From positions 121,751 through 185,750 of the forward strand of contig RSEH01000052.1 of NCBI GenBank assembly GCA_006503475.1: a stretch of 64,000 bases of DNA. The letters are read 5' to 3'. This document shows positions 25,007 to 31,836 of the stretch, piece by piece. The position numbers and the translations under genes were made by a program. How positions within the stretch are numbered: the stretch's first letter is position 1; each line of letters starts with the position of its first letter. A model generated the notes under the pieces. The model ran no database searches. It had not been told where the DNA came from and was given only the letters and a program-made list of their open reading frames with translations. This stretch comes from Stentor roeselii. Lineage: Eukaryota > Ciliophora > Heterotrichea > Heterotrichida > Stentoridae.

Positions 25007-25631
25007 TTTATAGAATCTCTTTAAAGACCCTCATCGTTCTTAACAAAGTATTTCAAGAGTGAGCCGTAATGAGTAACTAACTTTCAATAGATAATCTTAA
25101 AAAGGCTTCAAATGTATTTAAAAACTTAGTCGTTTCATATAATATTTCATAAAATTCCTTAAACTAGTATTTCAGAATGATATGGATTAAAAATAGGATC
25201 ATAAAAACATAGAAAAAGAATATTTAAACCTAATCATATGATGTTAAAATTTATTGCCTAGTTTAAAAAGGATGCAATTTAAAAGTTCTACTCTAGAAAC
25301 AATCAAGTCTTATGGAAACGATTCTAGAAAAACTTTTAATTAAAATACTTCTGAAGGATTGTGACCTTGTCCACTAATAAGTAAACTAACTAAAGTAATT
25401 TTAAAATAATATTTTCTAGTTTAAGAGTCTTAAACCACAGTTAATTAACTATTGACTAACAACTCTTTCTTTTAAAGTTGAATTGAGTAGAAGGGATGAT
25501 AGAGACGCTTTTAAGCTTGTTTTCAAGCTTTAGAAATTAATTTATTTGAGCGATTATATGATTAGGTAAATTCTAAGAGTTTTAATGTTATATATAAATT
25601 ATTAAGCTATGGTAAATTTTAATTAGTTTAA
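25007..25631. other. AT-rich gap including 3' flank of the inverted pseudogene
   Basis: No gene is seen. From about 25500 to 25631 the minus strand still aligns with sequence just downstream of the intact 26939-28666 gene (for example TTAATTTCTAAAGCTTGAAA against TTAACTTCTTGAACTGAAAA), so the duplication extends beyond the coding region. Confidence 0.5.
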
Positions 25632-26794
25632 TTAAATTGTTGAAAACAGATTTCGTTTCTGTTCTTTGGAAAATATAAGTTCTATTTAAATTGATCATTC
25701 TAAATCTCACTAAATATAAATAATTAATCAAAGATAACCATTTAAATAGAGTTAATCTAAGAATTGTATTAGTTTAAAAAAACATTTTCAATTTTATGCA
25801 CGAATTTCGAGTAAGTTCGAAGACGGATGCAAATAAAGCTTAACAATTTTTTGGAGAAGTAAAGTCTTCAGGGAGTAAGTGTAATTTGAATTACTAAGTC
25901 AATTATGCATTCCTTTGCTACATTGTTCAATAATATTGACTGAGTTCTTTATAATTATCTCAAAGAATGAGGCATGAACTCTGAACTCATTTCTGATAAT
26001 CTGCATGTTCTGCTGAGACTCACACAATAAACCAACTAAATAAAATAGTCATAATAGTAATTGCATCAAGGTTATGTTCAATGTGATTAAGACAACCTTT
26101 TCTAGATTTTTCTAGTAAATTCAAAGCATTTAAAAGATTCAATAAAAATCACCTATTAACTGCTGTGCTGAATTTTTTAGTTCCACATAAAGATCTTTAT
26201 TTTTTTCTATTCTCTCTCAAATAAGAGTTTGTCTTAATTTGAATTGTTTTGTTCAAACTTGAACATAAATTTAAAACATTAGAAATATATTTTCGTAAAC
26301 AGTATATCTCTTCTAGATAATTTTATATAAAGATTATGATTTTTGAAATGTTTTGTTTGTAAATGCTTTAAAAAATTGAAAAGTCTCTCGGATCTTGTTA
26401 TAGTAAAAGGAAATTAGGGTCTTGTTTAGAAGATCTTGGAAATTTATGGTTCATTTCTAAAAAATCTCTTGAGTATCATAAGATGCTGATTTTTTGACAG
26501 GATCTTGAATTTTTTCTATTGGAAAAGATTCCAAACTCTTAAAAGGGAGTTTGCGAATTTCGGATTATCATATAATTCCAATCACTTCACAGGGAGTTAA
26601 AGATTAAGAAGTTTAATATTATCCCGCTCTCTTGGCAGGGATTTAGAGGGTTTTTTTAGTATCATAAAATCCAATCTCTTGATATATAAGAGATTTTTAG
26701 AAATATCGTAAGATCTCGAACTTTTGACAGATTAGAAAGTTTTAAGTAGCATAATACTCTGATATCTTGACTCAGAGTACGAGAGTTTTAATAT
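25632..26794 (-). pseudogene. Decayed inverted copy of the KRS-repeat/HEAGH gene
   Basis: Read on the minus strand, this stretch is colinear with the intact gene at 26939-28666. From its 5' end it shows the leader AATAATAAAT with the start codon changed to ATA (26794-26792), remnants of the 48-bp repeat (PVKKSASYDTQE), NHKFPRSSKQD then QDPRDFSIF, LNALNLLEKSRKG, HIEHNLDAI, VIQITLTP, and finally AGAACAGAAACGAAATCTG up to TAA at 25634-25632. Many stops and frameshifts interrupt it. It is about 565 nt shorter than the intact copy; the largest losses remove about 45 codons before the TILGLTLFN-equivalent and about 115 codons that include HEAGH. It therefore cannot encode the metalloprotease-like part. 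Confidence 0.88.
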
Positions 26795-26938
26795 ATTTAT
26801 TATTACTAATGATAATTTAAAAAATATGAAAAAAATGTCAAAAAATCCTTTCAATAGATATAGCCTAAGTTATTGTAATGAAATCTTTAAGCCCATTTTT
26901 ACATTTATTCTATATTTAATGGATCTATAATAATAAAT

Positions 26939-28666
26939 ATGGAAAAAAATCACAATCTCACTGCAAAGAGATCTTCATCATCTGATAAGAAAAAAGAACT
27001 TAAACTTCCTGTCAAAAGATCTGCATTTCATGAAACTCAAAAAGAACTCAACCTGCCTGTTAAGAGATCGTCAGCATATGATATAAAAAATTATATTAAG
27101 CTCCCTGATAAAAGATCGGCATCATATGAAGCTCAAAAAAATCTTGAACTCCCTATCAAAAGATCGGCTTCATATAGTACTCCAAAATCACTCAATATCT
27201 CTATCAAAAGATCAGCACCTTCTAATATAAAAAGAAATATTAAGCTCCCTTTAAAAAGATCGGTATCTTATAACATTCAAGAAACTAACAGTCCATTTTA
27301 CTTAGTATCAAGAATACCTGTCCAGTACTCAAAAGTAAAGAAATCAAAAGATTTATTGGCAATCAACCATAAGTTCCCAAGATCACCTAAACAAGATTAC
27401 TATATATTTTTCCTTTGTCAAGATCCAAAAGACTCTGCAATTTTTAAAAAGTATTTAACAAAGGAAAGCATTTCAACGACTCATAATCCTTCTCAAAAAC
27501 TAAATATCGAAGAAATTTGGAGTCTTTATGAAAAAAATTTTTCTTTTGTATCAAGTTTATGCTCAATTGCAGATAAAACAATAAAAAACAATTCATATCA
27601 AAACAAAGAAACTCTTATTATAAAAGAAAAAAAAAAAATCACGGATTTATTCAATAAACTAAAAAAATCAGCTCAGAAATTAATAGGCGGACTTTATTTG
27701 AATCTGTTAGACTCTCTAAACTTACTTGAAAAATCAAGAAAATGTAGTTCATATCATATCGAAGATGATATTGATGCTATTATTACAATATTCATGTTTT
27801 TTTTAAATTGGTTTTTTTGTCTAAGACTTAATCGAGAGAACATTTGTAGATATTCAGAAATGATTTCGGAATTCACACCTCAATGTTTGAGATATTTGTT
27901 AGAAAATCAGTTGATATTATTGGATAAGATAACAAAATCATGTTTAATCTATTTAATAATTCAAATAACTCTAACTCCTGATAACTTCTCTTCTCCAGAA
28001 AAAATTTCAATGTTTATTTGCACCCGTCGTCAAACGACAAAAAATAAATCAATTCCTTTTGAGTTAGAAATCAATAATATCCTCAAGTCAAAATTGATGT
28101 TAGAGTATTTTAACAGCATTAATATAAAAAATTACAGAAAGGTGCAAGATAAAATTATAAAATCAACTTTTTTAACTGAACTTCCAGATACAATTCTTGG
28201 ATTAACTTTATTTAATGGATATATATTATTGTCTTGGTCACGGTTTTCATCTATTAAAAATAATAAGCTTCAAAAAGGTTTCATACTTTTGTGTTTAATT
28301 CATGAAGCAGGCCACTATATGATGAGAAATCAATATGAAACTGATAAACAATGGATTGAATGTTTAACACCAAGAGAATTAAATGAAGAAGCAGGAAACT
28401 ATTTAGAAATAAGACTCTTTGGTAAAAAAATGGAATTTATGAATATTGCTGCATGCGAATATATTTTGAATGCTAAAAATTGGAAAAAACAAGAAAAAGA
28501 ATTTAGAAGAGGGTTTAAAAAAATAAATAGAGATACTGATGAAAAAGGTCATCTTTTGATTGATAATTCACAAGTTGTGAGATTTAGAATGAGTAATACA
28601 AATAATGTCTATATTGGATATTGTCCCAAGCAAAACAGAAATCGAAATCAGTTTTCAACAGTTTAA
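26939..28666 (+). CDS. KRS-repeat protein with HEXXH (putative zinc metallopeptidase)
   Basis: An intact 575-codon ORF in unusually AT-rich DNA. Residues 10-121 are seven tandem 16-residue repeats, each starting KRS, consensus KRSASYxxxKxxLxLP. After a linker come helical segments and LIHEAGHYMM: His455, Glu456 and His459 form an HEXXH zinc site, and LNEEAGNYLE with Glu483/Glu484, 24 or 25 residues later, could give the third ligand as in gluzincins. Peptidase activity is inferred from this motif only; no named family is recognised. The protein has no signal peptide. A broken inverted copy lies immediately upstream, 144 nt between the two start positions. Codon use is far more A/T-ending than in neighbouring genes. 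It is either a member of a fast-evolving repeated gene family or a mobile or foreign gene. Confidence 0.7.
   Translation: MEKNHNLTAKRSSSSDKKKELKLPVKRSAFHETQKELNLPVKRSSAYDIKNYIKLPDKRSASYEAQKNLELPIKRSASYSTPKSLNISIKRSAPSNIKRNIKLPLKRSVSYNIQETNSPFYLVSRIPVQYSKVKKSKDLLAINHKFPRSPKQDYYIFFLCQDPKDSAIFKKYLTKESISTTHNPSQKLNIEEIWSLYEKNFSFVSSLCSIADKTIKNNSYQNKETLIIKEKKKITDLFNKLKKSAQKLIGGLYLNLLDSLNLLEKSRKCSSYHIEDDIDAIITIFMFFLNWFFCLRLNRENICRYSEMISEFTPQCLRYLLENQLILLDKITKSCLIYLIIQITLTPDNFSSPEKISMFICTRRQTTKNKSIPFELEINNILKSKLMLEYFNSINIKNYRKVQDKIIKSTFLTELPDTILGLTLFNGYILLSWSRFSSIKNNKLQKGFILLCLIHEAGHYMMRNQYETDKQWIECLTPRELNEEAGNYLEIRLFGKKMEFMNIAACEYILNAKNWKKQEKEFRRGFKKINRDTDEKGHLLIDNSQVVRFRMSNTNNVYIGYCPKQNRNRNQFSTV
26966..27301 (+). 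repeat. Seven 48-bp coding repeats
   Basis: Seven units of exactly 48 bp, in frame, place KRS at residues 10, 26, 42, 58, 74, 90 and 106. The units differ by substitution but not by length. Degraded units of the same array are found in inverted orientation in the upstream pseudogene, at about 26470-26790. Confidence 0.9.
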
Positions 28667-29882
28667 TTAGACTAATTTACTTAATATAGCTAAATAATAA
28701 TATTTAACATTAAAAAGAATAAAGTATACAATAATCATCTTATTACTCCATGAAATTAACTTCTTGAACTGAAAAAAAGCTTTAATTAAATCCTCCAGTC
28801 TGCATATTGTGCTTTTTTTGAAACTTTTATGTAAATTAAGTTATGCATTGAGAAAAAATGTGATAACTTTTGACAGTATTAGTTCGATTTATGGTATATA
28901 TATTTTCACAGTTTGGGAAAAGTTAAGGCAAATCTTAATCGAAATAAGTTAATTTGATAAAAGTATCGAAATCTCTATTAGATAATAAAATGATGAAACA
29001 GTTGGGTCCTTCCTTAACATTAATCTCGAACTTTGAGCAGCTTTAACATCAAAGCACAGCCAGAACGAAAACATATGAAGTTTATAGCTGGGTTGTTTTA
29101 AGGTATTTGTCCGGGATAAAGATATGAAAGTCAATAGCACGATTATCATCCTTAATTTGTGGTATACTCCAAATAATTTTTACATCTTCATATTTCTGTT
29201 TCAGCTGCAGTTCAAATTTGTATTAATGCTAAAGGTATATATTGATGTGTAGGATAAATTCGCAATTAAGAAAAATTTAATTAAAAATGAGAATTTATCA
29301 AATTAGATTAACTCAATAGATAAATATCAGCTATTTCATTAAAAAATTATCAAAAAGCTATGCTTATGTAAGATCAATTTATTCTATTTAAACTTTTAGT
29401 TTGAAGATAAAATATTCCATATAAAAATTATTATCAATACTAATATGAATTACGAAAATTTAAAAAATTTATTAATTAATGTTGATTACAAATTGTTCTT
29501 TGTAATATCCAAAGCCTAATTAATCCTTTTATTTTATAAAATCCAAGACATAAAAATAAAAATTATTAAAGTAATAGTAAATATTTGAAAACTACTAAAA
29601 AAGAAATTCTTTTCATCCATAATAACTTTCACTACAAATAACTCATGAAAATCCAAATTAATAAATTAACTCTTTAACCAATAAATAATAAAACAAAGCG
29701 AATTATTCATCCTCCTATCAAAATCTATTCAAAAACTCATCATACTCATTAAAATATCATAAAACATAGAAATCTCTCTGAATCATCTTCAACGACAAGA
29801 AAACCGAAAATAATCCCAAGAAGAAAAAAATAATCCCAAGAAGAAAAAAATTTCTCTTATTATAAAAATAACTAAAAAAGGA
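28667..29882. other. AT-rich gap with a possible gene relic on the minus strand
   Basis: No intact gene is seen. Two minus-strand frames have protein-like composition: 29082-29222 (includes KIIWSIPQIKDDNRAIDFHI and ends at TAA) and 28949-29149 in another frame. They may be parts of one decayed gene joined by a frameshift; they do not match the 575-aa ORF nearby. A 20-nt direct duplication (AATAATCCCAAGAAGAAAAA) occurs at about 29809-29850, just before the next gene. Confidence 0.4.
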
Positions 29883-30353
29883 ATGAGTAAAGACATCACA
29901 AAAGACTCTTATTCATTCTTACCTCGTGAAATCCAAGAGCGAGTGGCAATTAATAACTACCTAACCATCGATAGTCTTCGCAAAGGTTTCAAGCGTATCG
30001 AAAAACTCGCCCCTTTCATAAACCACGGAAAAATCAAAGAAATCCTCGACGTAAGAAACTCAAAAATATCTTGGTCTAAAAAAAAATCTCACAAATACAT
30101 AGAAAACTCTTCTTTAAACCAAATCACAAGATCCAAAAATATATCACCTCCTCGAAAACAAGTAGCACTTCCCAAGATCATCTCAAAAGTAAATAAAAAT
30201 CTTCTAGAAACAACACAAGAAAGATTTTTCATCAACACCATCCTGGAGGACTACAACGAAAGTTCTTTAATGATTAAGCCAGTTGAAGTCATTAATAGAA
30301 AAATAATATTCTCTACTTTTCAGAGTCCTAAACGAGGGTTAATTAACTATTAA
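29883..30353 (+). CDS. Unknown small basic protein
   Basis: A 156-residue Lys/Arg-rich protein starting MSKDITKDSYSFLPREIQER. No domain, signal or membrane segment is recognised. Its last four residues and stop (LINY, TAA) lie in the first of four 29-bp tandem repeats that also encode the C-terminus of the convergent MFS gene. An A-rich leader with a 20-nt direct duplication precedes it. Function unknown. Confidence 0.55.
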   Translation: MSKDITKDSYSFLPREIQERVAINNYLTIDSLRKGFKRIEKLAPFINHGKIKEILDVRNSKISWSKKKSHKYIENSSLNQITRSKNISPPRKQVALPKIISKVNKNLLETTQERFFINTILEDYNESSLMIKPVEVINRKIIFSTFQSPKRGLINY

Positions 30354-30460
30354 CTAATAATTCTTCGGTAATTAACTATTAACTAATAATTCTTCGGTAA
30401 TTAACTATTAACTAATAATTCTTCGGTAATTAACTATTAACTAATAATTCTTCGGTAATT
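30340..30460. repeat. Four tandem 29-bp repeats across two convergent 3' ends
   Basis: Units at 30340-30368, 30369-30397, 30398-30426 and 30427-30455 are identical, plus a 5-nt remainder. The plus-strand stop of the 29883 gene lies in unit 1 and the minus-strand stop of the MFS gene in unit 4. Each unit could supply either stop, so a single-copy ancestor would have had coding ends overlapping by about 11 nt. Confidence 0.95.
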
Positions 30461-31836
30461 GGACTTGGACGAGTTTCACGAAGTGGCAGGGATGAAAGGG
30501 AGGTTATTAAAAAACACCCTGCGAATACAAGAATCGCTGTGCCTGAACCGGAACTGGTGCTTAGCAACCAACCCGTGACTATTGGGCAGATTATTGCAGC
30601 GATTCTTGCACTGATGTTTGCTGCACCTACTCCGAGGTTTCTTATTTTAGTTGGGTAGGATTCAGGAGTTATTGTATACATTGCGCTGTAGCCCATTATA
30701 GCGACTAGGTTTAGAAGGGAAGTATTGAGGATTACCTATGTGATTCATACCGAAATAAAAGAAGTTTGAAAGTAGAACAACAAACAACAACCAGAAGCAA
30801 GTACAAAAGAAACCGAAATAGTATACCGTCTTCCCAACCAAGTTTCAACCAAATAACTTCCCAAAATAATTCCAGGAACACTGCAAACCTGTTGAAGTAA
30901 AATAACTCCATAAGCCTGAAGAATAGTGAGTTTACTCAAAAACTCAGGCATAAAATACAAAATACTTGTATAAGCAAAAGCAGCAGAACTATACATCTAC
31001 CTAAATCTCACCAATGCAAAACTAAGAGTAGACACCAAATGTTTCCCCTTAAACAACTTTTTAATCATATGCATCGCCTGAGGTTCTCTTTCATCAAAAC
31101 CATTAGGATTATTTCTTTTCATCAAGTTAAACTCATTCGCATTATTTTCCATTGAAATATTGTTCAAAACATTTTCCATATGCTCCAAATTTCCAGCTTC
31201 ATGATGAAAAGCCGGAGTTTCTTCTAAAGAAAACCGAAAACAAGCACAAACCGCTTCAATCAAAAATCCAATTCCAGAAATCAACCTCCAGGCAGGTATA
31301 ACTGAAACATTGATCAAAATAATGACAAGTGCTGTTAAAGCTGACAAGGTTCCTCCAAGTCCCCAGAACAATGCCATGCGAGTCAACAAATAATGTTTAG
31401 AAGGTGGACAAAACTCAAGAAAAACAGTACCTCCAAGTGAAAGTTCTCCAGCCATTCCAAATCCAAGAAAAAATAAACTAGCAACAACGATCCAAGGTGT
31501 ACAAGCAAAAGTAAGAACCAGTGAAAACATAGAAGCAACAGAAACAGTATTCTTAAAAGCGTACATTCTTCCGTACTTATCTCCCGTGAGTCCCCAATAA
31601 AAAGCCCCGATCATGAGGCCTAAAGGAAAGCCAGCTCCAAGTATTCCAGTCTGAACACCAGTCAGATTAAATTCATCTTTCGCCCCAACAAGGATGTAAG
31701 CAACGTTCGCTGACCAGAGCATGTCAGTCGTCCAGGCCTGTTTAAAACTTACGACTCCACATTGAAGAAAGACTTTAAGATTATAAGAGCCCCAACCGAT
31801 TTCTTCGAGATAGTGATGAGCTGTTTTCTGCTCCAT
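30430..31836 (-). CDS. MFS transporter, SV2/SVOP or organic-ion type (two introns)
   Basis: Exons 31836-31012, 30996-30751 and 30735-30430 give 458 residues and about 12 transmembrane helices. GDKYGRMYAFK after the second helix and the C-terminal PESYPTKIRNLGVG and ETRPSP resemble sugar/organic-ion transporters near SV2, SVOP and SLC22; the substrate is not visible. A cytosolic loop between helices 6 and 7 (about residues 205-265) is charged. The C-terminal EELLVNS is encoded by the fourth unit of a 29-bp tandem repeat. The start (ATGGAGCAGAAA) lies 26 nt downstream of the stop of the GRIP golgin gene on the same strand. Confidence 0.82.
30736..30750 (-). other. 15-nt intron, phase 0
   Basis: GTATGAATCACATAG, with A at position 10. 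It joins SFIS to VILNTSLLNLVAI and contains an in-frame TGA. Confidence 0.88.
30997..31011 (-). other. 15-nt intron with GTG 5' end, phase 0
   Basis: GTGAGATTTAGGTAG, with A at position 10. It is the only one of the twelve that starts GTG instead of GTA. It joins SFAL to MYSSAAFAY. Confidence 0.82.

Follow-up and report, generated by a model that had tools for sequence, protein, structure and literature searches.

The 64-kb window analyzed here (the whole stretch of DNA under study) contains an intact gene for a protein with an HEAGH motif, which lies head-to-head with a decayed, inverted copy of itself. In the following, the intact gene with its flanks is termed the RIGHT arm and the decayed copy the LEFT arm. 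We interpret LEFT as a dead copy that arose by local inverted duplication of one gene in a large, fast-turnover zincin-like gene family, and assign this interpretation a probability of about 0.87. The window forms the final 64 kb of contig C371 of its genome (44.4 Mb, 522 contigs), and C numbers such as C282 and C310 are contig labels of the same genome. A sequence-only reading had described the minus strand of 25632–26794 as a colinear wreck of the intact gene. It had staked this claim on a significant reverse-complement alignment of the two arms, and such an alignment was found.

The reverse complement of 25400–26866 aligned locally with 26867–28900 at a score of 783.5, which none of 200 dinucleotide-preserving shuffles came near (mean 296.4, standard deviation 14.8, maximum 347.5). 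The alignment comprised 1387 columns with 77.7% identical positions and 90 gap openings, and in 70 of these gaps the length was not divisible by three. When four other sequences were added in a looser MAFFT alignment, the arms were 64.7% identical over 1452 columns. The inverted repeats I2, I1, I6, I7, I3, I5, and I12 followed each other in consistent order in both arms (74–93% identity over 25–134 nt), while I4 fell within the 48-bp repeats, off the register of the others. When 25450–29000 was searched against the genome at the DNA level, the match between the two arms ranked behind a paralogue on C282. The arms matched in two blocks, at 71% (E = 1.3e-75) and 73% (E = 1.5e-26), and the C282 paralogue at 66% over a longer stretch (E = 1.4e-91). 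The longest exact match between the arms was 16 nt. Similarity also extended into the 3′ flank, where 28667–28790 and 25500–25635 aligned with a score of 99.5, as compared to 48.3 ± 6.8 for shuffled sequences. Leader, 48-bp repeats, several motif blocks, C-terminus, and 3′ flank are thus all present in LEFT, as the sequence-only reading had claimed, and the proposed borders could be refined: with its 3′ flank, LEFT reaches ~25510, and its head extends to 26805. The duplicated unit on the RIGHT side corresponds to ~26928–28785. Homology beyond the shared flank was not significant (217, 72, and 270 of 300 shuffles reached the three scores). The same applies to symmetry at the axis, tested with 60 bp on each side (score reached by 40 of 300 shuffles), and the arms are therefore regarded as separated by a spacer.

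The two arms differ clearly in their coding state. The three frames of LEFT are interrupted by 28, 37, and 34 stops, and its longest open stretch amounts to 61 amino acids. Both major lesions named in the sequence-only reading, i.e., loss of the start codon and deletion of the HEAGH region, were recovered; the deletion comprises ~0.33 kb and includes the EAG motif downstream of HEAGH, and pairwise local alignment splits the corresponding gap into several. RIGHT is open under moderate purifying selection: its ratio of nonsynonymous to synonymous substitution rates (dN/dS, Nei–Gojobori) is 0.23 when compared with the C282 copy, where dS is close to saturation at 1.54, and 0.30 over 145 codons of the C310 copy. 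With the C282 paralogue as third sequence, 1364 of the 1387 columns were kept (23 were dropped for low local identity). Changes assigned to LEFT numbered 25, 24, and 28 at codon positions 1, 2, and 3, compared to 16, 10, and 25 for RIGHT; another 45 differing sites were not assignable. This is the pattern expected of a neutral LEFT arm and a moderately constrained RIGHT gene, and it agrees with the earlier view of an inverted duplication with one eroded arm. Divergence between LEFT and RIGHT was 0.192, 0.192, and 0.256 at the three codon positions; it amounted to 0.260 over 204 columns of 3′ flank and to 0.167 over a short 5′ stretch of 60 columns. LEFT and RIGHT agreed against C282 at 195 sites (291 RIGHT/C282 differences minus 51 and 45), while the other groupings reached 77 and 51. 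Furthermore, the 3′ flank common to LEFT and RIGHT was not seen in the relatives C282 and C120, and this shared flank is independent evidence for the arms as sister copies.

We propose that a gene-sized stretch, consisting of a short leader, the 575-codon gene, and ~120 bp of 3′ flank, would have been copied beside itself in the opposite orientation. Orientation and extent of the copied stretch are visible in the arms, and the copying probably took place at the DNA level. One copy would then have lost selection and become a pseudogene via point changes, frameshifts, and the ~0.33-kb deletion over HEAGH/EAG, all of which LEFT carries, while the other would have stayed open under moderate purifying selection. 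LEFT combines similarity to a functional paralogue, a disabled frame, and a neutral substitution pattern, as pseudogenes do. The copied unit includes ~120 bp of 3′ flank, which may or may not be transcribed, and the gene itself is intronless. The event itself is ordinary, i.e., a duplicated pseudogene; the protein family is more interesting. The features of the locus are listed in Table 1.

Table 1. Features of the gene and its inverted copy (window coordinates, except for the last row).
Feature	Position	Strand	Basis
HEAGH-protein gene, RIGHT arm; 575 codons, intronless, intact	26939..28666	+	Open reading frame and translation
Seven 48-bp units, each a 16-amino-acid repeat with KRS (LPxKRS in 5/7)	26943..27278	+	Direct repeats; Tandem Repeats Finder, period 48
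HEAGH motif, amino acids 455–459	28301..28315	+	H455 and E456 invariant in 14-member alignment A1
EAG, amino acids 484–486; E484 putative third zinc ligand, G486 invariant	28388..28396	+	Alignments
3′ flank common to both arms	28667..28785	+	0/300 shuffles reach score
Decayed inverted copy, LEFT arm; leader, repeats, body, C-terminus, 3′ flank	25510..26805	-	Alignments, inverted repeats
Lost start codon; ATA in LEFT, ATG in RIGHT	26792..26794	-	Alignment
Deletion joint, LEFT arm; RIGHT 28216–28554 (HEAGH and EAG) absent	25733..25741	-	I7/I3 flank joint; gap in MAFFT alignment
3′ flank of decayed copy	25510..25630	-	Flank match, blastn
Spacer between arm heads, ~120 bp	26806..26927	.	Own symmetry not significant
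Inverted fragments on C260 beside intact family gene; order does not fit one copy	L010 2941–3160, 3427–3614		

The sequence-only reading had further suggested a gene family that multiplies, and a search of the genome indeed revealed many additional copies. Using tblastn with a limit of E = 10, the window protein gave 37 matches, a count that includes the protein itself and split matches; two other members gave 46 and 33 matches at E up to 0.01. Places were counted with 17 member queries at E up to 1e-4 in 33 merged fetched stretches (122,883 bases), which mostly included flanks of 1.5 kb per side; further tblastn places lie beyond the fetched DNA. We counted 33 family places in the fetched DNA, including short fragments and contig-end pieces; some fetched stretches (e.g., on C9 and C213) had no match at this threshold. 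Eleven of the 33 places lacked a single open frame over 90% of the match, and six of these (C339, C180, C407, C317, C396, and C101), read in three frames, displayed frame shifts. Loss of copies is thus a common fate in the family, which evolves by birth and death. Across the eight member pairs tried, dN/dS ranged from 0.23 to 0.42 (0.24–0.42 for the six pairs other than those with RIGHT). Regarding base composition, the family genes were AT-richer (G+C content of 27–37% in the open frames read) than most window genes (33–47%), and third-position G+C of the RIGHT gene was 21%.

The family shares the core ..LPxxxxGLTLxN..HExxH..R..W..EAG..LE..FG. In an alignment of 18 members (of 26 loci read, with fragments omitted), HExxH is kept in 13, and the second histidine is lost in those from C282, C120, C411, C354, and C453; an acidic residue occupies the place of E484 in 17 of the 18, as counted by eye. 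Judged from the motif, H455 and H459 are putative zinc ligands and E456 is a putative catalytic residue. With HEAGH and a downstream acidic residue, the most likely product of the live gene is a zinc-metallopeptidase-like protein that resides inside the cell. Searches against databases of known proteins returned little. Pfam gave no peptidase match for the window protein (neither YgjP-like nor SprT-like), and one of 14 scanned members matched YgjP-like below the cut-off (5.5e-5; 23.7 bits, cut-off 26). A sequence search of the PDB with the window protein gave no match up to E = 1, and profile A1 gave three matches (E 0.37–0.67), none of them named a peptidase. Relatives were not found in viral contigs, bacterial and archaeal genomes, or phages (eukaryotic genome collections were not searched). 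Among the literature matches listed, no title or abstract start described the family, which is a weak negative with most subscription papers and the Stentor genome paper outside the coverage.

At the N-terminus of the live protein, KRS recurs at amino acids 10, 26, 42, 58, 74, 90, and 106, i.e., at an exact spacing of 16 residues. Other members carry one similar motif, including MLPIKRS (C91), MLPCKRS (C211), and LPLKRS (C282, one unit), while an intact-looking C310 end has a KRS array as well. As a single motif is present in other members, we read the array of seven units as an amplification of an ancestral single motif. The array of the basic LPxKRS motif may act in docking, targeting, or phosphorylation, as far as its residues suggest.

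Several points weigh against our interpretation of the locus or of the family. The repeats are more divergent between the arms (67% blastn identity) than the body (71%) or the 3′ flank (73%), and conversion or repeat slippage may therefore have mixed their history. LEFT was aligned to RIGHT for the best score, which biases the site-grouping count toward agreement of the two, and the bodies of the C310 copies are cut off at contig ends, so that LEFT is not comparable with them. At some of the 11 places without a single open frame, the interruption may be a tiny intron and not a lesion. The loss of HExxH in five of 18 members means that the protein need not be an enzyme, and a single-sequence fold of amino acids 238–575 was uninformative (predicted local distance difference test score, pLDDT, of 32.6). 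Finally, as homology ends at a gene-sized unit and the axis lacks a palindrome, duplication and separate insertion are not distinguishable by these features.

Such a separate insertion, in which LEFT is an independent gene-sized copy placed by mRNA retroposition or as a mobile unit in the opposite orientation beside its source, is the alternative that survives best, and we consider it unlikely. It would fit the 14 frames in alignment A1, which are all open without introns, and several family pairs whose similarity hardly extends past the gene. In C211/C339, it spans −190 to +218 (90%). The main block of the C42 pair runs from −21 to +115 (91%), with two weaker blocks upstream of it, and that of C372/C510 from −302 to +223 (86%), with another block reaching −910. 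In C411/C258, similarity covers −286 to +141 (88%), and its 5′ edge is close to where the fetched DNA ends. However, poly(A) tracts were not seen at the 3′ edges of these four pairs when read by eye, and C394/C101/C108, C107, C317/C396, and the C310 ends share flanks of ~0.9 kb or more, which argues for copying at the DNA level. Marks of the mobility considered in the sequence-only reading were not seen in ten units, whose edges were set by eye and compared within ± 25 nt: target-site duplications did not exceed chance (the smallest direct P was 0.13), and a consistent terminal inverted repeat was not found (P below 0.05 in one of ten, at 0.03).

The related proposal that the family multiplies by inverted duplication receives partial support. 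Besides the window locus, C260 is the only place with adjacent inverted family fragments in the fetched flanks, and 23 of the 33 places have no second family place on their contig within the fetched DNA. On other contigs, the members of inverted pairs lie far apart (~31 kb on C42, ~32 kb on C107, and at opposite ends of the 196-kb contig C310), and C206 carries a same-strand pair ~4 kb apart. Inverted placement is thus one of several arrangements and was not shown to be a rule. The C310 ends (L071 1–2024 and L072 5389–7000) are inverted repeats with 87% and 90% identity in two blocks, and both carry a KRS-repeat family gene broken off at the same codon. Overall, 17 of the 33 places lie ≤5 kb from a contig end (~12% expected; binomial P 3e-8, with places treated as independent); this excess may reflect repeats that collapsed where the assembly breaks, or a subtelomeric position of the genes.

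It is very improbable that the two arms are maintained as an inverted repeat producing hairpin RNA, as a source of small RNAs against the family. The arms do surround a short spacer in inverted orientation, and small RNAs act in ciliate genome editing, with a Dicer-like protein in Blepharisma (PMC9942806). However, the sequence-only reading's suggestion that retained arms could form a hairpin does not agree with the longest exact match of 16 nt, which is far from long near-perfect complementarity, nor with ~22% mismatches and the many gap openings. In addition, LEFT changes at an equal pace in all codon positions, as in neutral decay, and transcription from the two leaders, which point away from each other, would diverge. 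Least probable of all is an assembly artefact, which the frequent location of family genes near contig ends might suggest, since false inverted joins should yield near-identical arms, whereas the arms here differ by ~22% and by a 0.33-kb deletion and lie 35 kb from the nearest contig end.

With local inverted duplication as the preferred explanation, the locus presents a clear gene and its dead twin at a neutral distance of ~0.3 substitutions per site (Jukes–Cantor, calculated by hand from 0.26), and thereby an internal neutral ruler. Beyond the single locus, the wider interest lies in a large, uncharacterized, fast-changing HExxH family with dead copies and likely pseudoenzymes in an apparent heterotrich ciliate. 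Large, fast-changing families with dead copies and pseudoenzymes often mark functions in recognition, defense, or predation. A more far-reaching scenario, which we regard as speculative and rather improbable, is an unnamed, lineage-specific zincin-like family that would spread in the germline as gene-sized units without terminal repeats or poly(A), sometimes inverted beside the source, with LPxKRS amplified into arrays and a repeated change from enzyme to pseudoenzyme, as in a recognition or arms-race family.

The genomic context was assessed from the window and from genome-wide searches. The neighboring genes in the window are eukaryotic, including those for chitin synthase, GRIP, ferlin, FYVE/PIP5K, and BART proteins. 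We identified seven candidate GT..AG introns of 15 nt at six places, whose omission restores the reading and which all have an A at position 10, although candidates occur at other lengths too (13 nt, n = 7; 37 nt, n = 12) and A is frequent in this DNA. No common motif was seen by eye among the printed candidates of 10, 13, 16, 34, and 37 nt. Introns of 15 nt with A at position 10 are described for Stentor in PMC9505925. The telomere repeat CCCTAACA, given for Blepharisma in PMC9942806, had 271 + 389 exact 16-mer matches genome-wide (control 0); those listed are grouped at the starts of contigs or at high coordinates that would fit the far ends. An exact match to three units of TTAGGG was not found in the genome, nor was one to a 16-base rRNA pattern. 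Based on the 15-nt introns and the CCCTAACA telomeres, the source appears to be the macronuclear genome of a heterotrich ciliate. Stop usage in 35 chosen open reading frames (ORFs) was TAA 20, TAG 13, and TGA 2, where the TAG count is too high because some ORF ends (e.g., 30997, 13464, and 17212) are stops inside candidate introns. The genetic code is apparently standard, in comparison to B. stoltei, for which UGA is listed as a sense codon in PMC9942806.

Regarding the neighborhood of the locus, a sugar-transporter (MFS) gene on the minus strand contains two candidate 15-nt introns (30997–31011 and 30736–30750), and the ORF finder ends this gene at the stop within the first of them. A perfect 29-bp tandem repeat (30340–30460, 4.2 copies) lies just past its readable end and overlaps the end of ORF 29883–30353. 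Upstream of the same ORF, an exact 20-bp tandem repeat was detected (29807–29851).

Compared to known systems, LEFT resembles a duplicated (unprocessed) pseudogene of a birth-and-death family in being a close paralogue of a live gene with copied flank, neutral pattern, stops, frameshifts, and a deletion; it differs by its inverted and adjacent position, while most family places are alone on their contig. The family resembles zincin metallopeptidases (nearest weak matches YgjP-like, PF01863, and SprT-like, PF10263) in that hydrophobic residues precede HExxH and an acidic residue follows further downstream in nearly all aligned members. It differs from them in that a single scanned member resembles YgjP-like below the cut-off, the window protein has no match, and the second histidine is lost in five members. 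The genome as a whole resembles the heterotrich macronuclear genomes of Stentor coeruleus and Blepharisma stoltei, sharing 15-nt introns with A at position 10 and apparently standard stops with Stentor, CCCTAACA telomeres with Blepharisma, and short intergenic gaps; its size of 44.4 Mb and the G+C content of 33–47% in most window genes are listed as differences.

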